DNA from: a virus
Direction: 5' to 3' (one strand)
IMG/VR virus record: IMGVR_UViG_3300030102_000849
Coordinates: 2,609 to 22,665 of that record
Length of the DNA: 20,057 nucleotides
Made by a program: the position numbers and the translations under genes. Position 1 is the stretch's first letter. Every line of letters starts with the position of its first letter. Positions 2-12,745 of the stretch are shown here, in pieces. The notes beneath the pieces are model-generated. The model did not search any database. It saw only the letters and a list, made by a program, of their open reading frames with translations, and had not been told where the DNA came from.

Positions 2-1711
2 GAATTAGAGGAAGCTACCTTTGGTAGAGGCAAATGGTTTGATATTGAAGACGATGTTGCTGACCCACAAAAGCAAGATATAGCATATTTAAGGGAAACT
101 CTTCTCAAAGATTTCAAAAAGAACAAAATTCGTAAAGGAATTGCGGAATGCCTTATAAATTCAGCAGTTTTTGGCACAGGTATTGCAGAAATTGTTCTTG
201 AGGAAGAAAAAACAATGGCTCCTGCTACTCAACCGGTTATGGGTGGCGATTTAACAGCAGTTGGTGTAAACATACAAGATAAAATATGTGTTAAATTACG
301 ACCAGTAATGCCTCAAAACTTTTTAATTGATCCTATTGCTACATCAGTTGAAGAATCAATGGGAGTTGCAGTAGATGAGTTTGTTTCTTTACACTCAGTT
401 GAGTTATCACAAGAAAAAGGAATATACAGAAAAGCTGATATAGCTACTTCCCCACCTGATTTTGATATTGAACCTGACCAAGACGCTGTTTCTTACTCAG
501 ACAATAAAGTTAGACTTTTAAAATACTATGGGTTAGTTCCTAAATATTTACTGGAAAAAGCACAAGCGGAAGAAAACGCTGAAGTTGAACAATTAACTGA
601 AGAAGACTCAGAAAATACTAGTGAATATGTTGAAGCTATTGTTGTAATAGCCAATGAAGGTGTTTTATTAAAAGCAGAAAAAAATCCTTACATGATGGGT
701 GACAGGCCCATAGTGGCATTTCCTTGGGATATCGTTCCTAGTCGTTTTTGGGGTAGAGGTATATGTGAGAAAGGATATAACTCACAAAAAGCTTTAGACG
801 CTGAAATAAGAGCTAGAATAGACGCTCTTGCTTTGACCATTCACCCAATGTTAGCTATGGATGCTACTCGATTACCTAGAGGGACTAGACCTGAAGTTAG
901 AGCCGGAAAAGTAATATTAACTAACGGTTCACCAAATGAAGTTCTTAAGCCATTTAATTTTGGTAATATAAATCAAATTACATTTGCACAAGCAGACGCT
1001 TTACAAAAGATGGTACAAACTGCTACAGGAGCTATTGATTCAGCAGGAATTCCGGGATCAATCAATGGTGACGCTACTGCCGCAGGTATATCTATGTCTC
1101 TTGGAGCAATAATTAAGAGACACAAAAGAACTTTGATAAACTTCCAAGAATCTTTTTTAATTCCGTTTGTAACAAAAGCCGCACACAGATATATGCAGTT
1201 TGCTCCGGAAGAATATCCTGTAGCTGATTACAAGTTTCATACATCAAGTTCTCTTGGTATTATTGCTAGAGAATATGAAGTATCACAGCTTGTACAGTTG
1301 TTACAAACAATGTCACCTGAAACACCAATGTATTCTCAGTTAATTATGTCTATCATAGATAATATGAATTTATCTAATCGTGAACAATTAATGCAAGCTC
1401 TTGAGCAAGCTAATCAGCCTGATCCTCAAGCTCAAGAAGCGGCTCTTGCAACACAACAATCTCAGTTGGCTTTCCAAGCGTCACAAACTGCCGCCTTAAA
1501 TGGACAAGCTTTAGAAGCACAAGCTAGGGCGGCTAAGTTAGCTACGGAAGCTGATATACTTCCTGAAGAGTTAGAAATTGATAAACTAAAAGCTATCACA
1601 ACTAACATTAAAGAAGGAAATCAAGATGATAAAGAGTTTGAAAAACGATTAAAACTAGCCGATAAACTTCTTAAGGAAAGAGAAGTTGCAGTAAAAGAAA
1701 GGATGAATTAA
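2..1711 (+). CDS. Portal protein (partial, start lies left of window)
   Basis: The reading frame is open from base 2, well upstream of the first in-frame ATG at 215, so the gene starts outside the window; 569 residues are visible. The portal is the ring at the unique capsid vertex through which DNA is packaged and ejected. The upstream part reads as portal core (AECLINSAVFGTG, about residues 45-60 of the visible part). Mid-protein there is a PYMMGDRPIVAFPW segment followed by RFWGRGICEKGYNSQK and a long arginine/alanine helix, a pattern typical of P22/T7-like podovirus portals. The last 120 residues are Gln/Ala-rich and then charged helix (QPDPQAQEAALATQQSQLAF), as in portals with a helical barrel. 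The position upstream of scaffold and capsid fits. It overlaps the next gene by one base (TAATG). Family assignment is by motif and context only. Confidence 0.9.
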   Translation, partial: ELEEATFGRGKWFDIEDDVADPQKQDIAYLRETLLKDFKKNKIRKGIAECLINSAVFGTGIAEIVLEEEKTMAPATQPVMGGDLTAVGVNIQDKICVKLRPVMPQNFLIDPIATSVEESMGVAVDEFVSLHSVELSQEKGIYRKADIATSPPDFDIEPDQDAVSYSDNKVRLLKYYGLVPKYLLEKAQAEENAEVEQLTEEDSENTSEYVEAIVVIANEGVLLKAEKNPYMMGDRPIVAFPWDIVPSRFWGRGICEKGYNSQKALDAEIRARIDALALTIHPMLAMDATRLPRGTRPEVRAGKVILTNGSPNEVLKPFNFGNINQITFAQADALQKMVQTATGAIDSAGIPGSINGDATAAGISMSLGAIIKRHKRTLINFQESFLIPFVTKAAHRYMQFAPEEYPVADYKFHTSSSLGIIAREYEVSQLVQLLQTMSPETPMYSQLIMSIIDNMNLSNREQLMQALEQANQPDPQAQEAALATQQSQLAFQASQTAALNGQALEAQARAAKLATEADILPEELEIDKLKAITTNIKEGNQDDKEFEKRLKLADKLLKEREVAVKERMN

Positions 1712-1938
1712 TGAAAATTTGGTATTTACTTCCCCTATTGACTTTAGCATTTGGATGTGTTACAGTAGAAAAGGATTATAAGCCAATAACTTTTGAAGGA
1801 AAACCTTTGTTTGATCTTCACGAAGTACAATGTCCTAGAAACATGGTTAAATTCTGTCAAGGACCTAATAGAAAAAATGTAAATTGTGGGTGTGTTACTC
1901 AACGAGAAATGACTCAAGCTTTTGATTTTTTACGATGA
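1711..1938 (+). CDS. Small cysteine-rich lipoprotein
   Basis: A 75-residue protein. It begins with a short signal sequence (Lys2, hydrophobic residues 3-14) ending in the lipobox LAFGC, with Cys16 as the predicted lipidated residue; this satisfies the usual lipoprotein signal pattern. The mature part of 60 residues contains four further cysteines (41, 49, 59 and 61, the last two as CGC), which suggests disulfides once exported. It overlaps the portal stop by one base and the next start by four (ATGA). Phage lipoproteins of this size can be outer-membrane spanins or superinfection-exclusion proteins, but the sequence is not proline-rich like classic Rz1 and its position next to the portal is not a lysis locus. 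Function unknown; export and lipidation are the supported part. Confidence 0.8.
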   Translation: MKIWYLLPLLTLAFGCVTVEKDYKPITFEGKPLFDLHEVQCPRNMVKFCQGPNRKNVNCGCVTQREMTQAFDFLR

Positions 1939-2069
1939 GTTGGTTGGAAAACTATAACGGAGAAGGAGCCAAATGGTGGCACGTAATACTATTGTTTCTT
2001 TTCTGGGGTGGATTGTTTGGTTATATGTATTTTTTTGGTGGAGAACCAGAGGTAATAATAAATGAGTAA
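1935..2069 (+). CDS. 44-residue single-helix membrane miniprotein
   Basis: ATG at 1935 overlaps the lipoprotein stop (ATGA) and the gene ends eight bases inside the next gene, so it is translationally tied to both. The 44 residues are a polar N-terminus (MSWLENYNGEGAK), one hydrophobic aromatic-rich segment at about residues 14-34 (HVILLFLFWGGLFGYMYFF), and a short acidic tail ending EVIINE. This looks like a single transmembrane helix with charged ends. I do not recognise the family. The perfect fit between the two neighbours, with no gap, is the main argument that it is a real gene. Confidence 0.65.
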   Translation: MSWLENYNGEGAKWWHVILLFLFWGGLFGYMYFFGGEPEVIINE

Positions 2070-2352
2070 GAAAAAAGATCCAAGATTAGAGAGGGCCGGA
2101 GTTAGTGGATACAATAAACCGAAACGTACCCCCAATCACCCTACAAAGAGCCATGTTGTCGTGGCAAAGGAAGGTGACAAAATCAAGACGATTAGATTTG
2201 GTCAGCAAGGAGCCAAAACAGCGGGAAAACCAAAAGCGGGTGAATCTGCTCGTATGAAAGCTAAAAGAAAATCTTTTAAAGCAAGACACGCTAGAAATAT
2301 AGCCAAAGGTAAAATGTCTGCGGCATATTGGGCTAATCGTACAAAGTGGTGA
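2062..2352 (+). CDS. Basic conserved phage protein, 96 residues
   Basis: A very basic protein rich in Lys, Arg and Ala. The start at 2062 has a good ribosome site (AGAGG at 2048-2052, nine bases upstream). The middle reads HVVVAKEGDKIKTIRFGQQG, a short beta-like stretch, followed by a Lys/Arg-rich helix with KRKSFKARHARNIAKGKMSA and the end AAYWANRTKW. I recognise this as a type of small protein widespread in marine phages, especially in structural gene clusters, without known function. The charge suggests nucleic-acid binding or association with packaged DNA, which is inference. The opposite strand is also open here (2086-2289), but that is a by-product of the Lys-rich codon pattern. Confidence 0.85.
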   Translation: MSKKKDPRLERAGVSGYNKPKRTPNHPTKSHVVVAKEGDKIKTIRFGQQGAKTAGKPKAGESARMKAKRKSFKARHARNIAKGKMSAAYWANRTKW

Positions 2353-2355
2353 GAA

Positions 2356-2511
2356 ATGAAAAAGTTATGGAAAATATGGGCGTTAAGCCTAGGTCAGCCT
2401 ATTGGTGATACTGAATCAGAGGTAGAACTAGTTTCCATAATAAGAACAATTATAGTTCTAATAAATATAACTTGTTGTTTTTTAATTATGTATAATATAT
2501 TAATGAGGTAA
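2356..2511 (+). CDS. 51-residue membrane miniprotein
   Basis: ATG at 2356 lies three bases after the preceding stop and the gene ends two bases before the next ATG. The 51 residues start with MKKLWKIWALSLG, then an acidic linker (DTESEVE) and one long hydrophobic segment at about residues 28-50 (IIRTIIVLINITCCFLIMYN). The pattern of an amphipathic WKIWA start, a short acidic hinge and a C-terminal membrane helix resembles a small protein I have seen repeatedly in marine podovirus genomes near the portal. Its job is unknown. A role in the host membrane is inferred from the helix alone. It is the only hydrophobic product amid the run of basic miniproteins. Confidence 0.7.
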   Translation: MKKLWKIWALSLGQPIGDTESEVELVSIIRTIIVLINITCCFLIMYNILMR

Positions 2512-2513
2512 TT

Positions 2514-2690
2514 ATGGCTAAAGGTGTAAAACATTATTTTCGAGATGGTACTCCTCATATGGGAGGAACTCATAAAATGCCCGATGGTTCATTACACAGC
2601 GGAGCAAGACATACAAAAAACAGTAAGCCTTTGTTTCACATGAAGGACTTATCTAAAACTGCTAAAGCAAAAGCAATGAGGAAAAAATAA
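2514..2690 (+). CDS. 58-residue Lys/His-rich miniprotein
   Basis: ATG at 2514 is preceded by TGAGG (2504-2508). The product has two similar halves: HYFRDGTPHMGGTHKMPDG and then SLHSGARHTKNSKPLFHM, with HMGGTHKM and LHSGARHT spaced about 14 residues apart, and then a basic C-terminus (KAKAMRKK). The repeated G-x-x-H-T/K pattern with seven histidines could bind metal or simply be a small beta-hairpin repeat; this is inference. It resembles a small protein common in phage structural regions, function unknown. The stop overlaps the next ATG by one base (TAATG). Confidence 0.75.
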   Translation: MAKGVKHYFRDGTPHMGGTHKMPDGSLHSGARHTKNSKPLFHMKDLSKTAKAKAMRKK

Positions 2691-2815
2691 TGCCAAAGAA
2701 AAAAATGACACCCAAGCAAAAAAAGCTTGCGGCTATAGCACCTCCTAGAAATAAAATAACTAGAAGAGATATTATTACAGCGGCTAGAAGAAATAAAAGA
2801 AGAGGCAAAAAGTAA
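2690..2815 (+). CDS. 41-residue Lys/Arg-rich miniprotein
   Basis: The gene starts in the TAATG of the previous gene and ends in the TAATG of the next. The product opens MPKKKMTPKQKKLAAIAPPR and continues NKITRRDIITAARRNKRRGK. About 17 of 41 residues are Lys or Arg and there are no acidic residues apart from one Asp. The middle (LAAIAPPRNKIT-RDIITAAR) looks like a short helix-turn-helix-sized segment with basic tails. Similar short proteins occur beside portal genes of marine phages. Function is unknown; DNA or RNA contact is inferred from charge. Confidence 0.7.
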   Translation: MPKKKMTPKQKKLAAIAPPRNKITRRDIITAARRNKRRGKK

Positions 2816-2985
2816 TGGCTAGTAAAAATGTTCCTGTAAATAAATCTTTATATTCAAGAGTAAAGTCAGAAGCAAAGCGTAAGTTTGCAGTATATCCCTC
2901 AGCTTATGCCAATGCTTGGCTAGTAAGGGAGTACAAAAAACGTGGCGGTACATACAAAAAAGTCAGCACCAAAAAGAAAAAGTAA
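2815..2985 (+). CDS. 56-residue basic miniprotein with YPSAYANAWLV motif
   Basis: Starts in a TAATG overlap. The 56 residues carry a compact motif, SLYSRVKSEAKRKF-VYPSAYANAWLVREY, followed by KKRGGTYKKV and a poly-Lys tail. The YPSAYANAWLV-EYK-RGG-Y pattern is one I recognise as conserved in small proteins of marine podoviruses and cyanophages, function unknown. The predicted structure is two short helices with a basic tail. The last 44 bases are also coding in another frame, because the next gene starts inside it at a GTG. Confidence 0.8.
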   Translation: MASKNVPVNKSLYSRVKSEAKRKFAVYPSAYANAWLVREYKKRGGTYKKVSTKKKK

Positions 2986-3238
2986 AGCTAGTGGCGGTTT
3001 GACTCGTTGGTTCAAAGAGGACTGGCGAGATATTAAAACTGGCAAAAAATGCGGTAGAGGAAAGAATGAAAAAGGAAGGCCGTACCCGGCTTGTAGACCG
3101 TCTAAGCGAGTCTCAAGTAAAACACCAAAGACTACTGGTGAAATGTCTTCTGCTGAAAAGACGAAATTTAAAAGAGCAAAAACTTCAAGCAAAAAAATTT
3201 CTTACCAACACAAAAGAAAGGGAGTAAAAAAGAGATGA
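2942..3238 (+). CDS. Basic conserved protein, 98 residues, GTG start inside previous gene
   Basis: No ATG lies near the start of this frame. The GTG at 2942 is preceded by AAGGGAG (2925-2931, ten-base spacing), so I choose it; this places 44 bases of overlap in a different frame with the previous gene. The product has a basic N-tail, then GGLTRWFKEDWRDIKTGKKC, GRPYPACRPSKRVSSKTPKT and a Lys-rich C-tail. The GGL-RWF-E-W, C-G and CRPSKRVS-KTP pattern, with two cysteines 24 residues apart, is a conserved family in phages of unknown function. The paired Cys could bind metal. It overlaps the next start by four bases (ATGA). Confidence 0.85.
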   Translation: MAVHTKKSAPKRKSKASGGLTRWFKEDWRDIKTGKKCGRGKNEKGRPYPACRPSKRVSSKTPKTTGEMSSAEKTKFKRAKTSSKKISYQHKRKGVKKR

Positions 3239-3312
3239 TGTACGGATATGGTAAACCCAAAAAGAAAAAGAAAACAGTTACTAAGCCAAAGCGAAAGCCT
3301 AGAAAAAAGTAA
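3235..3312 (+). CDS. 25-residue poly-lysine microprotein
   Basis: The open frame runs from ATG at 3235 (ATGA overlap with the previous stop) to TAA at 3310-3312. AGGGAG at 3219-3224 sits ten bases upstream, the same spacing as for the GTG gene at 2942. The peptide is MMYGYGKPKKKKKTVTKPKR followed by KPRKK: 13 Lys or Arg in 25 residues and no acid. It is below usual annotation limits, but the good ribosome site, the exact four-base coupling and the MYG-KPKKK start, a look shared by other marine phage microproteins, argue that it is translated. Function unknown. Confidence 0.6.
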   Translation: MMYGYGKPKKKKKTVTKPKRKPRKK

Positions 3313-3315
3313 TAC

Positions 3316-3344
3316 TTGACTTTTTCTTAAAAATGTGATACAAT
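3316..3344 (+). promoter_or_regulatory. Extended -10 sigma70-type promoter
   Basis: TTGACT at 3316-3321 (-35, five of six consensus) and TACAAT at 3339-3344 (-10) are separated by exactly 17 bases, and TG at 3336-3337 adds the extended -10 element. Transcription would start at about 3350-3352. It lies in the longest gap among the head genes and would drive the zinc-ribbon, scaffold and capsid genes, the products needed in the greatest amount. This is the only site in the window with all elements in a non-coding position. Confidence 0.75.
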
Positions 3345-3350
3345 ATAAAG

Positions 3351-3364
3351 TATACTATAGTATA
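3351..3364. promoter_or_regulatory. Perfect 14-bp palindrome at predicted transcription start
   Basis: TATACTATAGTATA is its own reverse complement and lies exactly where transcription from the preceding promoter should begin. TATAG is then repeated (TATAGTATAGTATAT, 3357-3371). It could be a repressor operator. Alternatively the ACTATAG core (3354-3360) resembles the initiation region of single-subunit phage RNA polymerase promoters (SP6/T7 end in CACTATAG). Both are inference; AT-richness raises the chance of accidental symmetry. Confidence 0.4.
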
Positions 3365-3401
3365 GTATATTAATTAACTAACTGTCCTTTGGAGAAACAG
3401 T

Positions 3402-3698
3402 ATGGATACAACAGAAGATCAAGTCACTATTGAAAGAATCCACAGAGAGTATGAAGAAATGTTCAGAACTCAAGGTTGGAAAAATCTTCTCAAAGACTTA
3501 ACTAATAATGCAATTCAAATAAACTCAGTAGATGCTTGTAAAGACCTAAAAGAACTTCATTTTCGTAAGGGTCAACTTTCAATTATAGCAAATGTATTGA
3601 GTCTTGAACAAAGTTTAAAAACAGCTAAAGAACAAGCTGAACAAGAAGAAATAGAATCACTTGAAGAAGATACTGAAGTTTCTAAAAGCATAAACTAA
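3402..3698 (+). CDS. Helical acidic protein upstream of scaffold
   Basis: First gene after the promoter; the ribosome site GGAGA (3391-3395) sits six bases before ATG. The product has 98 residues and is almost wholly helical, with the pattern RIHREYEEMFRTQGWKNLLK, then INSVDACKDLKELHFRKGQL and a long acidic coiled coil (EQAEQEEIESLEEDTEVS). I recognise the YEEMF-T-GWK and LYFRKGQL-like segments from small proteins that precede the scaffold in marine podoviruses; their role is unknown. It could help in head assembly, judged from its operon partners. Its stop overlaps the next start (TAATG). Confidence 0.85.
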   Translation: MDTTEDQVTIERIHREYEEMFRTQGWKNLLKDLTNNAIQINSVDACKDLKELHFRKGQLSIIANVLSLEQSLKTAKEQAEQEEIESLEEDTEVSKSIN

Positions 3699-3928
3699 TG
3701 AGAATCTTTATTGATTTTAAATGCAGTAACGGACACACTACTGAAAAATTTATAGATAATAAAACTAAAGAAATAGAGTGTCCAGTTTGTTCAGAAATAG
3801 CTAGTAAAGTTATATCTCCTGTTCGTAGTCTCCTTGATCCCATATCAGGTGATTTTGTAGGTGCTACCATGAAATGGGCTAGAGACCGCGAAAAGAAGAT
3901 ACAAAAAGAACGTAAGGCAAATTCGTAG
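3698..3928 (+). CDS. Zinc-ribbon protein, FmdB-like
   Basis: A 76-residue protein with a zinc-ribbon: Cys9 and His13 (KCSNGH), then Cys28 and Cys31 (CPVCS), 15 residues between the pairs. This matches the size and layout of FmdB-type regulatory zinc ribbons, with His replacing one Cys. The second half has a conserved-looking SLLDPISGDFVGATMKWARD followed by a basic helix (REKKIQKERKANS). The combination of ribbon and LDPISGDFPGAT-like segment recurs in marine phage genomes between the portal and capsid genes. Function unproven; protein or nucleic-acid binding is inferred. It is translated with the gene before it through a one-base overlap. Confidence 0.85.
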   Translation: MRIFIDFKCSNGHTTEKFIDNKTKEIECPVCSEIASKVISPVRSLLDPISGDFVGATMKWARDREKKIQKERKANS

Positions 3929-3979: not shown

Positions 3980-4813
3980 ATGGCAACTTTTATAGATGAG
4001 CGTCAGGATAAAGACGATAAAAACGAAACTGAAGAAATTAGCGATATAAATGAAACTAGTGTTGACAAACCTTTAGAACCAATCGAGGAATCAACACCCG
4101 AACCAGAAGCAAAAGAAAGTACTGAGGAAGAACTTCCAGATAAGTACAAAGGTAAAAGCACAGCGGAAATAGTGCGTATGCACCAAGAAGCTGAAAAACT
4201 TTTAGGTAGACAAAGTTCTGAAGTAGGTGAGCTAAGAAAAGTCGTTGATGATTATATCCAGACTCAACTCTCGACCACTAATGCACCGAAAACAACGGAT
4301 GAACGACAGGAAGAGATAGATTTTTTTTCTGATCCTGAAAAAGCAGTTGATAATGCGATTAGCAATCATCCTAAAATAAAACAAGCAGAACAAGCATCTG
4401 TAGAGTATCAACAAAAAACAGCGATGTCTGAATTACAAAAAAGACACCCTGATATGAAAGATATTTTATCTGATGGTAAGTTTGTTGATTGGATAAAAGC
4501 TAGTAAAATAAGAACTCAACTCTTTGCACAGGCAGATCAAGATTATGATTATGAAGCCGCTGATGAATTGTTTTCCACATGGAAAGAACGTCAGCAAATA
4601 GTAAGCCAAACTGCAAATAATGAAAAGCAACAACGCAAAGATGCACTTAAAGCGGCATCTACTGGCAATGCTAGAGGAAGCGGTGAAAAACCATCTAAAA
4701 AAATCTATAGACGTTCAGACATTATTAAACTAATGAAGGACGATCCAGAAAGATATTTAGCATTGTCAGATGAAATAATGCAAGCCTATCAAGAAAGGAG
4801 AGTCCGAAACTAA
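3980..4813 (+). CDS. Capsid scaffolding protein
   Basis: 277 residues from ATG at 3980. I prefer this start to an in-frame TTG at 3956 because GGGG (3969-3972) lies seven bases before the ATG and MATFIDERQ begins a normal acidic N-terminus. Order: an acidic disordered region (residues 1-60, rich in Glu, Asp and Pro), LPDKYKGKSTAEIVRMHQEA, a helix with GRQSSEVGELRK, an acidic middle, and a basic C-terminal part (KPSKKIYRRSDIIKLMKDDP). Scaffold proteins direct capsid assembly and bind the coat through a basic C-terminus; length, composition and position just before the capsid gene all agree. The DKY-GKS-EIV-MHQEAEKL segment is characteristic of podovirus scaffolds. Confidence 0.88.
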   Translation: MATFIDERQDKDDKNETEEISDINETSVDKPLEPIEESTPEPEAKESTEEELPDKYKGKSTAEIVRMHQEAEKLLGRQSSEVGELRKVVDDYIQTQLSTTNAPKTTDERQEEIDFFSDPEKAVDNAISNHPKIKQAEQASVEYQQKTAMSELQKRHPDMKDILSDGKFVDWIKASKIRTQLFAQADQDYDYEAADELFSTWKERQQIVSQTANNEKQQRKDALKAASTGNARGSGEKPSKKIYRRSDIIKLMKDDPERYLALSDEIMQAYQERRVRN

Positions 4814-4829
4814 TTAAGGACTTAGTATT

Positions 4830-5786
4830 ATGGCTACATCAACATATCCCGCAATGGGCGGGGCGGTAGGAGTATCAGACGTAGGTACGTTTATTCCAGA
4901 GATTTGGAGTGACGAGGTTATTGCCGGTTATGAAAAATCTTTAGTACTTGCTAATTTAGTCAAAAAAATGGCTATGACTGGTAAGAAAGGAGATACTTTA
5001 CACATACCAAAACCAACAAGAGGTACTGCCTCTCAAAAAGCTGAAAACACAGCAGTAACAATTCAAAACGCATCTGAAAGTGAAGTTCAAGTAACAATTA
5101 ATCAACACTTTGAGTATTCACGTTTAATTGAAGATATTGTTGAAGTTCAAGCTTTAGCTTCACTACGTCAGTTCTACACAGGTGACGCAGGTTACGCTCT
5201 TGCTAGACAAGTAGACTTAGACTTGTTTGCACTTGGTAAGTCACTAGGTGACGGAGATGGATCAGACTTTACACACTCAAACGTATTTAATTTTAAAGGT
5301 ACAAATGGTATTGAATTATATGCGGCTGATGCTGTTGCTGATACTGACGTTTTCAATGATGCCGGTTTCCGAGCGGCTATCCAACAACTAGATGACGCAG
5401 ATGTCCCAATGGACGGACGTTCTTTAGTTATACCACCATCAGTAAGAAATGAAATTATGGGTATTGACCGATATATGTCTTCTGACTTCGTAGACGGAAG
5501 AGGCGTAAGAAACGGTCTTATCGGTAACCTTTATGGTATCGATATCTTTGTTTCATCTAACTGTCCAGTAATTGAAACTGCGGCTCAAAATAGCGCAGGT
5601 ACAAAAGATGTCAAAGAAGCTCTACTTCTCCATACAGACGCTATGGTTATGGCAGAGCAACAAGGTGTACGTTCACAGACTCAGTACAAGCAAGAGTTCC
5701 TTGGAACCTTGTATACTGCTGACACTCTTTACGGAGTCAAGGTACTTCGACCAGAGTCAGGCATAGTATTAGCTGTCAACGGATAA
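4830..5786 (+). CDS. Major capsid protein
   Basis: 318 residues; AAGGA at 4816-4820 precedes the ATG. This is the shell subunit. The sequence has the features of T7-like/HK97-fold coat proteins: a Gly/Ala-rich N-arm, TFIPEIWSDEVIAGYEKSLV, a long helix, KGDTLHIPKPTRGTA (E-loop region), HFEYSRLIEDIVEVQA (spine helix), RSLVIPPSVRNEIM and YGIDIFVSSNCP near the A-domain, and a basic/aromatic end. It lies directly after the scaffold and before a strong hairpin, the same arrangement as T7 gene 10 with its terminator. Codons here are less A-ending than in the neighbours, as expected for a highly expressed gene. Confidence 0.93.
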   Translation: MATSTYPAMGGAVGVSDVGTFIPEIWSDEVIAGYEKSLVLANLVKKMAMTGKKGDTLHIPKPTRGTASQKAENTAVTIQNASESEVQVTINQHFEYSRLIEDIVEVQALASLRQFYTGDAGYALARQVDLDLFALGKSLGDGDGSDFTHSNVFNFKGTNGIELYAADAVADTDVFNDAGFRAAIQQLDDADVPMDGRSLVIPPSVRNEIMGIDRYMSSDFVDGRGVRNGLIGNLYGIDIFVSSNCPVIETAAQNSAGTKDVKEALLLHTDAMVMAEQQGVRSQTQYKQEFLGTLYTADTLYGVKVLRPESGIVLAVNG

Positions 5787-7129: not shown

Positions 7130-10100
7130 ATGGCTCAAACAATTAAGTTAAAAAATTCTGGTACGTCATCTAATATACCCTCATCATTAGAACATGGTGA
7201 GTTAGCTATTAACTATGCTGACGGCAAAATATTTTATAAAAACTCTAGTAACAATATAGTTGAATTTGCTTTATCAAGCACTGCAACAGGCGTAAATGTT
7301 ACAGGCGTAAGTACAAATGCCGCATTAGGACTTGTGTTTCACACTGGCGGCAACACATTACAAACAGATGCCCATTCTCAATTAACCTTTAATCCATCAA
7401 CAAACATTTTAAGTGTTCCGAAAATTGGGGTGGGAACGTCAGCACCCGCGACTTTATTTAATGTATTTACTGATACAGGTCGTGATTTTAGAGTTGATCA
7501 TGGAACTGCAAATAGAACGATATTATCTACTGATCGTGGAATGATAATCAAAGCGGGTGGAGGTTATTCATTAGATTTAGATACAAATAGTTCAAGCGGA
7601 ACACTGCGGTTTTTTGCTAACGGTAGTGAGGTTGCTAAGTTTGATAGTTCTGGTAATTTTACTATAACGGGATCAAACGCTGATCTTACTCTTGGCGCAA
7701 CTGGCAATGATATTACATTCAATAGAAATGCTGATAATTATATAAATGCTCAAGCGGGAACATCTTCAAATATAATAATCAATCCTGAAAATCGTTTTGT
7801 TGTAAATACATCAGATACAGAGCGTTTACGCGTTGATAGTTCTGGTCGTTTACTCATTGGGACAACAAGCACGACTCCGGGATTCTCTACAACAAACGGA
7901 CATGCTTTTCACGTAGGAGATGCGTCACATATATCTCGTGATCAAGGTGTTGCTCTTGTTATAAATAGAGGAACGAATGATGGTGGAATAGTACAGTTCA
8001 GAAAATCAGGCACTTATGTAGGCGGTATTGAATCTCGTTCAGGTGCTGTCACTACAATGATTTTCGATCCACGTACAAATGGATCGGGAATAAGTGGTAC
8101 AACAAACGGTTTAATACCAACAAACCAATCAGGAACACCAACAAATAATCATGTTGATTTAGGTTCAAGTACTAATAAATTCAAAGACGCTCATTTCAGT
8201 GGAACAATAACTGGTGGACAAGACTTTAAAGCCACTGGCAATAACATGAAACTTCATGCGGGTGGCAATCATATTATCAACATGGATTTAAACGGTAAGT
8301 TTTATCCACAAACGCATAATGCCGTTGATCTTGGTTATAGCAGTACGTTAGCGTTCAAAGATTTGTATCTTAGCGGAAGTATCAAACATTCGGGTGACAT
8401 GACCATCGATGTTGGTGGTGGAGATATCTTGTTAAAAGACGATGGGACATGGTTTGGCTTGATAGCAAATACAAGTAGCGATTTGGTTATCAAATCCATC
8501 ATACAAGACAAGGATATAATCTTTAAAGGAAATGACGGTGGATCGAATGTCGATGCGCTTAGACTTGATATGAGCCAAGCGGGTGAAGCAGATTTCAATA
8601 GTGCCATAAAAGTAGCGGGTGGTATTGTTGCTCATCAAACAAACAGAGGTGTATTGGAATACGCATCAAATGTTTTCAAGATACGATCTTATGGTGCTAC
8701 CTCTGGAAGTGGCTCAATAACGCTTTCAACAGGTGGAGGCGGTGCAAGTGCTGATACGGTTGCTCTTACATTAGATAGCAACCAAAACGCTACATTCTCA
8801 GGTAGCGTTAGTACAGATCAAATAAACAGCGATTCTTTCAATCTACGCAATACCTCAAATGGCAATATGATCAAAGCTGTTTCGGGTGGTGCAGTAACTT
8901 TGTATCACAATGAAAACGCTGTGGTTAAAACAAATGGCAGTGGTTTAGTTGTAGAGTCTGGCATGAATTTTAACATGACAGGCAATATGATGATCGGAGC
9001 GACTACTACGCCCGCTTCAAGGCTCCACGTCCAAAATTCGACAACGGAAGAATTTATTTTTGAAACAACCAATAACAGCACTAGGTCACAATTAGAAGTT
9101 AAATCTCCAAACAGTTCTGGCAATCCTATACAGGTCAGACTAAGCAGTATGGGAGATAGTAATTATGGCTTGCTCTACACATTTACAAACCACAATTTAA
9201 GTTTTGCAACAAATAACGCGGCTCCACAAATGACTCTGGATACATCAGGGCGCTTGGGTATTGGAACTTCTCCCGCACAAAAACTTGACGTTGCAAATGG
9301 TCATATAAAACTTTCCGCAGGTTACTCCTTACAATGGGATAATTCTCACGAAAGAATAGAACAATCAGATGGTAATTTAGAATTTTTTACAAATAATAGT
9401 CAACAAATGACCATAAGTGGCTCAAATGTTGGTATTGGTACATCATCCCCTAATTCGTATTCTGGTTATAACGCACTAACAATCAATGGTTCAAGTGGAG
9501 GCTTGTTAGATTTTGAAACAAACGGCACATTTGTTGCAGAGGTTTGGGGAGATGGAACCGCGGGTTTAGGATTACAAGCAATCGGAAGTCGGTATATAAG
9601 ATTTCTCACTAATAGCACAGAGCGCGTAAGGCTTTCGCCAGATGGTAAGCTTGGAATCGGAACCTCATCGCCAGACGCACCTTTAACAATTCATAATAGC
9701 TCCGATCCAGAAATTAGAGTTGGATATAACTCATCACAAGATCACAGACTGACTTGGGATAGTTCAAAGTTATTTTTAGACGCTGATCCAGATAATGCTA
9801 ATAACAACTCAGCGTTGGGTTTTAGAGTTGACGGCAGTCAAGTCGGTTATTTTACTAATAGCGGAAATTTTGGTATCGGAGCGAGCACATCGCTTAGTTA
9901 CAAGTTCCAAGTGAGAAACGATGTTGCCGCATCAACCGATTTAGATCCCGCTTCAGTACGTCTTTACAACAACTCTGATGGTGGCGCGGCAATTTTATTT
10001 GAGAATGGCGTATCAGCAAAATCAAAAATTTCTTTTGGTGTGGAAGGAACTGGAGCAAGCACAGATGAAACTTTCATAGGCTTTAGCACTGGTGCTAATA

Positions 10101-12745
10101 CGTCAATGAGTGAAAGCGCGAGGATAACAAGTGGCGGTTCTCTTCTTGTTGCTAAAAGCGATTTTACTTTTACGACTACGGGTATTGAGTTACGAGGCGG
10201 CAATGGCGGAGCACGGTTTATTAGAAGCAACGCCGAACCTGTCATTATGAACCGAACAGGTTCAGACGGTAAAATCCAAGGACTGTATAAAGATGGAGTT
10301 GAAATAGGTAGTATTGGTGTAGACAGCGGCGACAACTTATACATTGCAGGGTCTGCGTCTAATCATGCCGGTTTGTATTTAGGTACAAATGTAGTTGCTC
10401 CTCTCAGCGCAGGAAGTTTAACTGACGATGCTGTTGATATAGGAAATTCCGATTATCGTTTTCAAGACGCTAATTTAAGTGGGACGGTAAATGCAAACAA
10501 TATAAGTGTTGCAGAGGATATTAAACACGCAGGCGATTCTGACACTTACATAAGTTTTGAAAGTAACAGCCAAGTATTTTATTCGGGCGGAACACGAAGC
10601 ATCGATCTGAATCCGGGGTCAATAGTTCTCAATGAAGGTGGTGGTGATCAAGACTTTAGAGTAGAAGGTGTAGGCAAAAGTCATTTGTTATTTACAGATG
10701 CCGCAAATGGTAGGGTTGGCATAAATATATCAAATCCTACACAGACTCTTGATGTTAACGGTGGCGCTAATGCGTCAGCAAGATTTATCACAGGAAACTC
10801 AGCGGCACAATTTAATCAATACAATAGCGGAGCAGTGTTGTGGCTTGATGGATCAGATGGCGATTTTGCGGGTGGTGATTACTTTGGATTACACGCACAA
10901 TCAGCAACCGATTTTTACATTAGTTATGCTTCAGCAAGAATAATGACCCTTACGAGTGGATCGCTTGTTGGTATTGGCGAACAAAATCCAGACTCTCAGT
11001 TACACATTAAGAAATCTGGACCGATCAATATTACAAGTGGCGCGAATCGTACAGGTGCAGTCTTAACACTAGAGCACGATGCACAGTGGGAGAACGGTTA
11101 TACAGGCGGTGACTTCTACGGTGGTATTGAATTTAAGAGTGGTGATGGTTCATCGGGTCAAGGTTTACGAGCCGCAATACGATCTGAAAATACAACTTAT
11201 TACAATGCAAGCAACTTAGTTTTACAGGTTGCTAACCATGACGACAATATTACAGATACCAAAGTAGAAATCGAAACTCACGCGATTACATTCTTTACAA
11301 ATAATACGTCTGGCACGAACCAAGAACGAGCAAAAATTACTGACGAACAATTACTTGTCGGTAAATCTGCGAGTAATATAGCTACGCAAGGTGTTGAAAT
11401 ATCAACGACAGGTCAGATTGTTGCATCACAACCGGGCGCATCCGCTTTAAAAGTCAATCGGCAAACTAATGAAGGTGCATTGATTCAATTCTATCAAGGC
11501 AACAACTTTCGGGGTGAGATTGGGATATTTGGCTCTGATCCTTATATTGGTTTACAAGATACAGGATTACGATTTGGTTATGCGGGACTAAATAACATTA
11601 TCCCATTTGACGTTAACGATGTTCAGATAAGTGACAATGCAACAAGCCTAGGGCATCAAAACGCTAGGTTCCACGATCTTAATATGGGCGGGACTGCTTA
11701 TATCGGGGAAAAAATTGCGGTGGGTACGACATCAGCAGACGGTTTGTTGCACGTTTATAAAGGAAACAGTGGGCATACTTGGAGCTTTGATGGTGGCGAT
11801 GCTTTTATTCTTGAAAACAGCGATTCAGTAAGCATTAATATTGCTACCCCCGCATCAAATAGTGGAAACATTTTATTCTCTGACGTAAACGCAAGAGGTC
11901 AAGGGCGTATTTCTTATACTCACCATGACGATGCTATGTCATTTATGACGGGGGGTATTAGCAATACGCGTCTGTTTATTAACAGTTCTGGACGTGTTGG
12001 TATAAACACAGTATCACCCACAACAAAATTAGAAGTAAAAGACACTGGATCAACTTCTCTTGGTGATGACGCTAACGTCATGCGAGTAGTAGGTGATGAT
12101 CACACTAGATTGGTTATAGAAAGCACATCGACAAGCGGACACAGAGGTTGTTTAGTACTCAAGTCAGATGGTGGTGAAGAAGTAGATATTTCCACTTTTG
12201 GCAATAACATCATGCTTTTCAATGTTAATAGACAGGAGGCTATGAGGATTGATGCTAATAAACGCCTTATTATTGGCGGGACATCATATGGAGCCTCAAA
12301 CAGTGTTGGTATTAATTCAAGCGGATCAGCATATTTTGATTCTACAGCTACAAATGTTGTAGAAGTAAACAGAACTTCAAATGGAAATGCCTTGGCGTTT
12401 CATAATAGCGGTAGTTTGGTTGGCTCAATAACTCTCGGTAATACATCTACCGCATATAACACATCTTCAGATGCTAGATTAAAAGACAATATTGAAGATG
12501 CAGACGATAGCGGTGAAAAAATAGACGCTATTCAAGTCCGTCAGTTCGATTGGAAGTCAACTGGCAAACATCAAGATTTTGGAATGGTTGCACAAGAGTT
12601 GATCCATGTAGCTCCTGATGCTGTAACTGTACCAGAAAATACAGGCGAAATGATGTCTGTAGATTACTCAAAACTAGTTCCTTTACTTATGAAGGAAATT
12701 CAACAACTACGGGCGAGAGTCCATAAACTCGAAGAGGAAAAATAA
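7130..12745 (+). CDS. Giant tail fibre with C-terminal S74 self-cleaving chaperone
   Basis: 1871 residues, 28% of the window; AGG at 7118-7120 precedes the ATG. Residues 1-46 repeat the N-terminal module of the fibre before it (SLEHGELAINYADGKIFYKN). The long middle is beta-rich Gly/Ser/Asn/Thr sequence with about eleven G-I-G-T-x-x-P type motifs and four V-D-L-G...F-D...SGT units, typical of trimeric fibres. The C-terminal part from residue 1779 has SSDARLKDNI and FDWKSTGKHQDFGMVAQELI, the signature of the intramolecular chaperone of endosialidase (peptidase S74), and ends in a coiled coil. It likely recognises the host surface. No enzymatic (glycanase) domain is recognisable by eye. Confidence 0.92.
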   Translation: MAQTIKLKNSGTSSNIPSSLEHGELAINYADGKIFYKNSSNNIVEFALSSTATGVNVTGVSTNAALGLVFHTGGNTLQTDAHSQLTFNPSTNILSVPKIGVGTSAPATLFNVFTDTGRDFRVDHGTANRTILSTDRGMIIKAGGGYSLDLDTNSSSGTLRFFANGSEVAKFDSSGNFTITGSNADLTLGATGNDITFNRNADNYINAQAGTSSNIIINPENRFVVNTSDTERLRVDSSGRLLIGTTSTTPGFSTTNGHAFHVGDASHISRDQGVALVINRGTNDGGIVQFRKSGTYVGGIESRSGAVTTMIFDPRTNGSGISGTTNGLIPTNQSGTPTNNHVDLGSSTNKFKDAHFSGTITGGQDFKATGNNMKLHAGGNHIINMDLNGKFYPQTHNAVDLGYSSTLAFKDLYLSGSIKHSGDMTIDVGGGDILLKDDGTWFGLIANTSSDLVIKSIIQDKDIIFKGNDGGSNVDALRLDMSQAGEADFNSAIKVAGGIVAHQTNRGVLEYASNVFKIRSYGATSGSGSITLSTGGGGASADTVALTLDSNQNATFSGSVSTDQINSDSFNLRNTSNGNMIKAVSGGAVTLYHNENAVVKTNGSGLVVESGMNFNMTGNMMIGATTTPASRLHVQNSTTEEFIFETTNNSTRSQLEVKSPNSSGNPIQVRLSSMGDSNYGLLYTFTNHNLSFATNNAAPQMTLDTSGRLGIGTSPAQKLDVANGHIKLSAGYSLQWDNSHERIEQSDGNLEFFTNNSQQMTISGSNVGIGTSSPNSYSGYNALTINGSSGGLLDFETNGTFVAEVWGDGTAGLGLQAIGSRYIRFLTNSTERVRLSPDGKLGIGTSSPDAPLTIHNSSDPEIRVGYNSSQDHRLTWDSSKLFLDADPDNANNNSALGFRVDGSQVGYFTNSGNFGIGASTSLSYKFQVRNDVAASTDLDPASVRLYNNSDGGAAILFENGVSAKSKISFGVEGTGASTDETFIGFSTGANTSMSESARITSGGSLLVAKSDFTFTTTGIELRGGNGGARFIRSNAEPVIMNRTGSDGKIQGLYKDGVEIGSIGVDSGDNLYIAGSASNHAGLYLGTNVVAPLSAGSLTDDAVDIGNSDYRFQDANLSGTVNANNISVAEDIKHAGDSDTYISFESNSQVFYSGGTRSIDLNPGSIVLNEGGGDQDFRVEGVGKSHLLFTDAANGRVGINISNPTQTLDVNGGANASARFITGNSAAQFNQYNSGAVLWLDGSDGDFAGGDYFGLHAQSATDFYISYASARIMTLTSGSLVGIGEQNPDSQLHIKKSGPINITSGANRTGAVLTLEHDAQWENGYTGGDFYGGIEFKSGDGSSGQGLRAAIRSENTTYYNASNLVLQVANHDDNITDTKVEIETHAITFFTNNTSGTNQERAKITDEQLLVGKSASNIATQGVEISTTGQIVASQPGASALKVNRQTNEGALIQFYQGNNFRGEIGIFGSDPYIGLQDTGLRFGYAGLNNIIPFDVNDVQISDNATSLGHQNARFHDLNMGGTAYIGEKIAVGTTSADGLLHVYKGNSGHTWSFDGGDAFILENSDSVSINIATPASNSGNILFSDVNARGQGRISYTHHDDAMSFMTGGISNTRLFINSSGRVGINTVSPTTKLEVKDTGSTSLGDDANVMRVVGDDHTRLVIESTSTSGHRGCLVLKSDGGEEVDISTFGNNIMLFNVNRQEAMRIDANKRLIIGGTSYGASNSVGINSSGSAYFDSTATNVVEVNRTSNGNALAFHNSGSLVGSITLGNTSTAYNTSSDARLKDNIEDADDSGEKIDAIQVRQFDWKSTGKHQDFGMVAQELIHVAPDAVTVPENTGEMMSVDYSKLVPLLMKEIQQLRARVHKLEEEK
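7424..12040 (+). repeat. Degenerate protein-level repeats in the giant fibre
   Basis: Motifs of the form [LVF]GI[GN]-x-x-x-P-x-x-x-L-x-[VI] occur at about residues 99, 242, 619, 709, 766, 840, 914, 1195, 1280, 1528 and 1623 (for example LGIGTSPAQKLDV and VGINTVSPTTKLEV). A second unit, V-D-[LI]-G-x(5)-F-x-D-x-x-x-[SG]-G-T, occurs near residues 341, 397, 1100 and 1502. Nucleotide identity between copies is low, so this is old divergent repetition, not recent tandem duplication. Confidence 0.75.
12467..12745 (+). other. S74 chaperone domain, predicted cleavage before Ser1780
   Basis: By analogy with the endosialidase tailspike chaperone, in which a Ser and a Lys five residues later form the self-cleavage dyad (S-D-x-R-x-K), Ser1780 and Lys1785 of this fibre are the counterparts. 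Cleavage between Ser1779 and Ser1780 would release 92 residues after the fibre has trimerised. The later conserved parts (FDWK, GMVAQEL, DYSKLVPLL) are present and the end is a charged coiled coil, so the domain looks intact. Confidence 0.8.

Follow-up and report, generated by a model that had tools for sequence, protein, structure and literature searches.

A cassette of small basic proteins beside the portal gene of a podovirus-like genome: probable internal head proteins packed with DNA

Introduction

In a marine phage record of 22,665 bases (IMG/VR record IMGVR_UViG_3300030102_000849), a run of small and extremely basic reading frames is located next to the portal gene, which raises the question of whether these frames are real genes and what their products do beside the head genes. 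The initial annotation proposed histone- or protamine-like products that could neutralise packaged DNA, act in the prohead or interfere with host nucleic acids. The window analyzed here is a stretch of 20,057 nucleotides inside this record (positions 2,609 to 22,665), and all coordinates refer to it unless a contig is named.

Results and Discussion

Organization and Charge of the Block

The gene order of the record was found to be probable terminase small and large subunits, portal, basic cassette, c98, zinc-ribbon-like protein, probable acidic scaffold, major capsid protein and tail genes (Table 1). The terminase genes are located upstream of the window and were assigned by eye from sequence and position. 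A very long tail-fibre gene (7130–12745, 1871 aa) shows matches to tail-fibre families in the C-terminal part of its product and a chaperone-like end.

Between portal and c98, a 75-aa protein with a lipoprotein-like start and a 44-aa membrane protein precede the block at 2062–3312. The six basic ORFs of the block, named P1 to P6 (96, 58, 41, 56, 98 and 25 aa), overlap or abut and have the lengths and positions originally annotated. The membrane miniprotein reported among them was identified as mem51. The described coupling was also observed: gaps of 3 and 2 nt flank mem51, TAATG forms the P2/P3 and P3/P4 junctions, and overlaps of 44 nt (P4/P5) and 4 nt (P5/P6) follow. Purine-rich Shine-Dalgarno-like stretches are found upstream of the starts.

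The extreme basicity could be confirmed. The summed net charge of P1 to P6 is +106 (individually +11 to +28) and the pI ranges between 10.5 and 12 (P1 11.4, P2 10.7, P3 12.0, P4 10.5, P5 11.1, P6 11.0). The six proteins share the small, basic and lysine-rich character of T4-type internal proteins. For the 19 other genes tested, the net charge per residue is between −0.09 and +0.05.

A strong promoter-like element follows the block and is conserved, so the scaffold and capsid genes may have a transcript of their own. In the relative L004 it reads TTGACA and TATAAT. In the window, the stretch 3316–3375 holds this element and then the palindrome TATACTATAGTATA, which is operator-like in look. An Rfam search of the window gave no match.

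Table 1. Features of the portal-to-capsid region of the window.
Feature	Position	Strand	Evidence and remarks
Portal gene	2..1711	+	PHROG 1216 portal, E 2e-40; 5′ end upstream of window
a75, lipoprotein-like start (by eye)	1711..1938	+	ORF; net +3; flanking, outside basic cassette
b44, small membrane protein, overlaps P1 start	1935..2069	+	ORF; weak holin PHROG match, E 0.11
P1, 96 aa, net +23	2062..2352	+	PHROG 7595
mem51, membrane miniprotein, 51 aa, net +1	2356..2511	+	PHROG 1679, E 1.9e-11; dN/dS 0.12–0.15
P2, 58 aa, net +11, His-rich HYFRDG..HKMPDG family	2514..2690	+	In 8 of 48 slots; CRP-902, CRP-207
P3, 41 aa, net +16	2690..2815	+	Among relatives only in L003, L004
P4, 56 aa, net +15, N-terminal half of DUF5872	2815..2985	+	Pfam E 2e-9, profile 1–52
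P5, 98 aa, net +28, GTG start, C-terminal half of DUF5872	2942..3238	+	Pfam E 1e-13, profile 45–114
P6, 25 aa, net +13, Lys/Arg tail-like	3235..3312	+	Conserved in L002–L004
Promoter-like element TTGACT-17-TACAAT with TG	3316..3344	+	Conserved in L002, L004
c98, conserved acidic protein, closes slot	3402..3698	+	Charge; order in relatives
Zinc-ribbon-like protein	3698..3928	+	Zn_ribbon_8 E 0.0012, below cut-off
Probable scaffold, acidic (net −16)	3983..4813	+	Position, composition; PHROG 13678 of unknown function
Major capsid protein	4830..5786	+	PHROG 267 E 1.5e-55; Pfam PF19821

Selection on the Reading Frames

Two close relatives, L002 and L004, whose capsid proteins show 95% and 91% identity, served as references for dN/dS. 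In this order the values are 0.05 and 0.10 for P1, 0.10 and 0 for P2, 0.03 and 0.04 for P4, and 0.16 and 0.18 for P5. These four genes are under purifying selection, and a dN/dS near 1, named at the outset as an argument against the genes, is removed for them. For P3 the value is 0 with one silent change only (L004), and for P6 it is 0.22 and 0.46 with only two or three differences per comparison; in both genes the changes are too few to decide.

The basic ORFs in the block comprise 477 aa. When the sequence was simulated 1,000 times by a first-order Markov model that keeps its nucleotide-neighbour statistics, such ORFs reached 44 aa on average and 229 aa at most. Random lysine-rich ORFs arising from an A-rich strand are ruled out by the simulation together with the dN/dS values.

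Family Assignment of P1, P4, and P5

Residues 2–96 of P1 match positions 2–96 of the PHROG 7595 profile, i.e., end to end over the full length (E 5.7e-44). The last 73 residues also match PHROG 220, but more weakly. PHROG 220 is a large protein, to only a small part of which P1 corresponds, and its label, minor head protein and DNA pilot, is a database annotation. No Pfam match was found for P1, DUF6321 included. Homology of P1 to DUF6321 was not significant (hhalign 7–9%, shuffled pairwise z 1.1–1.8), nor was homology to an 84-aa family by hhalign and shuffled pairwise scores. The structure model of P1 is moderately confident (pLDDT 68.5) and gave no PDB fold match at E ≤ 0.001.

P1 was identified in 45 phage records, ranging from roseophages, HMO-2011 and SIO1 through to cyanophages, and DUF6321 in 510. 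A further 68 P1 loci are found in GTDB genomes. Since all of these are metagenome-assembled, binned or single-cell genomes (largely aquatic by their titles), the loci are probably phage contigs. Their P1 neighbours include genes for portal, terminase, major head protein and endolysin, and also for helicase and endonuclease. In the roseophage CRP-207, phage C72C1 and the cyanophage P-SCSP2, several of the families occur together near portal, terminase or scaffold.

P4 and P5 score 38.5 and 52.3 bits against Pfam DUF5872 (PF19197), above the curated cut-off of 27.5, and cover adjacent parts of the profile. Judged by these matches, both are members of DUF5872 in a split form: instead of a single polypeptide with both profile halves, separate overlapping genes are found in the window and also in L002 to L004. 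Since L002 and L004 share the overlap, an assembly error was rejected as the cause of the split. Programmed P4–P5 frameshifting would need a shift of +1 (or −2), and separate initiation is the simpler explanation, since P5 has its own GGGAG-GTG start, conserved in L002 and L004. An 84-aa P5b family was considered as a P5 homologue and rejected as weak (hhalign 24% at best, 2% with an expanded set).

Gene Content of the Portal-to-c98 Slot in Relatives

Eighty contigs with related capsid proteins were examined, of which 48 (window included) have a usable slot between portal and c98. The order of portal, c98, zinc-ribbon protein, scaffold and capsid gene is constant across the relatives, while the gene content of the slot turns over strongly. 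At least one strongly basic miniprotein was found in 43 of the 48 slots and two to six in 35; the count is an underestimate, since P1 escaped the simple gene caller in some slots. The position between portal and scaffold is kept and the filling is nearly always lysine-rich, but the families in the slot change.

P1 occupies 35 of the 48 slots and an 84-aa DUF6321-related protein eight others; the two were found together in none. When mapped onto the capsid-protein tree, this pattern can be explained by only two or three changes. The mutual exclusion is therefore no proof of equivalence and was downgraded, although it is suggestive of two interchangeable proteins. Other recurrent slot families are a 47-aa NIHAKRKR family, a 40-aa QTHGGKGS family and GKGTYGSKVGRPPAKKK. 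A pair of 60 and 84 aa also recurs and is fused to 132 aa in L016, L041, L050 and L072. The fused form matches positions 2–109 of DUF5872 (E 0.0014), below the cut-off.

The zinc-ribbon-like protein (3698–3928) is kept between basic cassette and scaffold in nearly all relatives. In one contig, the genes of the probable terminase subunits, small and large, are separated by that of a 120-aa protein that by eye resembles a D-Ala-D-Ala-type peptidase (L082, 746–1108).

Fusion of the Domains in T4-Like Phages

In cyanophage S-BM3, the P4 match is located inside the 337-aa protein T4-GC119, which adjoins the terminase small subunit and is composed of a P5-like segment (P5c), P4 and DUF6321. A survey of related viral contigs revealed this order in 30 ORFs, of which about 14 are distinct with a P4 E-value below 1e-20. 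In two contigs, L119 and L147, a single ORF carries P5c, P4 and P1. The correspondence was supported by profile comparison, in which P5 equals P5c (96%, E 2e-9) and P4 equals P4b (81–82%, E 1e-5). Because the P1, P4 and P5 domains are found in one chain elsewhere, they are expected to work together (Rosetta-stone argument).

T4-GC119, a protein of marine T4-like cyanophages, was called hypothetical by Sullivan et al. 2010 (PMC3037559), and the S-E7 annotation labels it structural protein. It resembles the block in its P5-like and P4 domains and in its place beside packaging genes, and related S-CREM2 proteins were found in virions. It differs in being one large protein, ending with DUF6321 in most cases and with the P1 domain only in L119 and L147, whereas in the window the miniproteins are separate and DUF6321 is absent. 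A model of the T4-like multidomain protein (pLDDT 63.9) gave no informative structural match.

Virion Proteomes and Targeting-Like Starts

Two proteins of cyanophage S-CREM2 carry the domains in profile searches. In gp137, DUF6321 spans residues 420–490 (E 2.5e-24); in gp160, which has a DUF5872-like match, P5c was found at 140–210 (E 1.3e-21) and P4 at 261–290 (E 7.6e-5). Both were detected in the S-CREM2 virion proteome, gp137 with 4 unique peptides (4.1% coverage) and gp160 with 7 peptides (13.1% coverage) (PMC10665884, Table 3); the authors caution that some detected proteins were possibly co-purified (PMC10665884). The DUF6321 protein of S-SZBM1 (SSZBM1_192) is absent from the 30 virion proteins detected (PMC9146016). 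For P-SCSP1u, cryo-EM reported no ordered extra capsid protein, and a close relative of this phage encodes DUF6321. This null result is neutral on packaging, neither support nor refutation. Standard proteomics would miss lysine-rich miniproteins because their tryptic peptides are too short.

T4-like capsid-targeting starts were found on several stand-alone DUF6321 proteins, namely those of S-CREM1 (MKTYNDFITE), S-SZBM1 (MKTFKQYITE), L136 (MKTFSQFMAE), L156 (MKTFKAFISE) and L158 (MITFKQFLDE). In the T4 propeptide, positions 4, 7, 8 and 10 are aromatic, aromatic, aliphatic and glutamate, respectively. In IPIII, targeting depends mainly on residues 4 and 7 and processing on residues 8 and 10 (PMC9026906). 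Targeting-like starts were not significantly enriched (p = 0.16). The loose motif also opens the plastoquinol oxidase of S-BM3, and 25 of the 28 other matches belong to one neighbouring gene family directly after the fused protein.

The fused basic protein is followed in about 25 contigs by a protein of roughly 105 aa with the start MKS[FY]..F.SES.. (e.g., L092, 4065–4409; L147, 2015–2332). By its targeting-like start this protein is a candidate internal head protein. A further small protein, the 87-aa hypothetical S-SZBM1_195 (L176, 4878–5141), adjoins the terminase small subunit and has the third highest emPAI in the S-SZBM1 virion proteome (PMC9146016).

The proposal that basic head-gene products act with packaged DNA gains indirect support from the S-CREM2 virion proteins and the targeting starts, but the products are not six unrelated ones.

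Comparison With Histones, Protamines, and T4 Internal Proteins

The label histone- or protamine-like could not be upheld. Pfam searches of P1 to P6 against histone, HU and protamine families gave no match at E up to 1, and P1, P4 and P5 are conserved in sequence and partly folded, not simple lysine/arginine tracts. A protamine-like composition was found only in P6 and P3.

A closer likeness is to the T4 internal proteins IPI, IPII and IPIII, an exchangeable set of small, basic, lysine-rich proteins made with the head, whose targeting start recurs in some homologues of the domains. The T4 proteins are present in about 360 copies each (PMC9026906) and contact DNA phosphates via lysines only (PMC3012670). 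They are diverse anti-restriction proteins (PMC3012670), and T4 without IPIII forms aberrant heads (PMC9026906).

The T4 proteins are capsid-targeted and processed by gp21, whereas inspection of the translations of P1 to P6 revealed no T4-like targeting propeptide with a gp21-type cleavage site, and no prohead protease was recognised in the 22.7-kb record. The window has six different families in one operon beside the portal of a podovirus-like genome. Since the targeting propeptide was looked for and not found, P1 to P6 are not T4 internal proteins; by analogy, they probably work like them.

Proposed Role and Alternative Explanations

The reading that we favour with moderate confidence is that the block forms an exchangeable cassette whose small, basic products are internal head proteins packed with the DNA. 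It draws on conservation, charge, position, the fusion in single polypeptides and the published detection of homologous-domain proteins in S-CREM2 virions. Packaging in the window phage, DNA binding, charge neutralisation and ejection are what we infer, DNA contact and ejection from charge alone.

The proteins would be made late, on the packaging/portal transcript, and would enter the prohead or bind the DNA during packaging, possibly attracted by the acidic scaffold or by DNA; the prohead entry of proteins without a targeting sequence is the weakest step. On the packaged DNA they would stay as a cationic filler with their lysines on the phosphates, and part of them may be ejected with it. P4 and P5 would act as a single split DUF5872 unit, and P1 would be their partner domain, fused elsewhere to P4- and P5-like domains. 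A rough calculation gives the scale: a genome of an assumed 40 kb has 80,000 phosphates, of which about half would be covered by the +106 set at about 360 copies, the T4 number (PMC9026906) assumed for each protein.

It is rather unlikely, yet it deserves weight, that the proteins are late intracellular nucleic-acid-binding proteins that remain unpackaged and, for example, coat concatemeric phage DNA, bind ribosomes or RNA, or aid the substrate choice of the terminase. Such a function would fit the nearby terminase genes in T4-like phages and the terminase, helicase and endonuclease genes elsewhere, and also the undetected DUF6321 protein of S-SZBM1 and the P-SCSP1u structure, whereas the two S-CREM2 proteins detected in virions and the targeting-like starts of some homologues argue for packaging.

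Assembly factors that bind the acidic scaffold or the portal in prohead assembly, and are lost or low-copy afterwards, are improbable. The block does lie between the portal and the acidic scaffold, portal and capsid are acidic too, P-SCSP2 has the same families between scaffold and capsid genes, and the aberrant heads of IPIII-deficient T4 (PMC9026906) point in this direction. However, the fast exchange of families beside a conserved scaffold and capsid suggests no fixed scaffold contact, and little or nothing is found in the slots of some relatives.

Least probable is a role in anti-defence or host takeover after ejection, with packaging as in T4 IPI and a basicity that serves packaging and ejection only: the fast exchange within a fixed slot, the mutual exclusion of P1 and the 84-aa family (35 and eight slots) and the diverse anti-restriction T4 proteins (PMC3012670) would agree with it, but that exclusion amounts to two or three changes on the tree, and the strong conservation of P1 and P4 in unrelated phages that infect different hosts is unlike that of an arms-race protein.

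Implications for Marine Phages

The annotation of the algal giant virus CpV-BQ1 includes DUF5872 as well (PMC12085832), whereas DUF6321 was not found in the literature searched. The linkage between the families and the proposed role are new relative to this literature. If the internal head protein cassette is set in a wider frame, it is possible, though only tentatively put forward, that marine podo-, sipho- and myoviruses, and perhaps, by way of DUF5872, algal giant viruses, share an exchangeable kit of small basic domains coating packaged viral DNA. This kit would comprise P1, P2, P4/P5 (DUF5872), DUF6321 and others, used either singly as miniproteins or strung like beads in one protein. With the same reserve, such a coat may have no earlier description as one system.

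In abundant ocean phages, genes of several of these families have lacked an explanation, and the fusion, the shared slot and the published virion proteomics give them a testable role. If this role is true, protein-based neutralisation or protection of packaged DNA would be common in the sea, beyond the T4-like coliphages.
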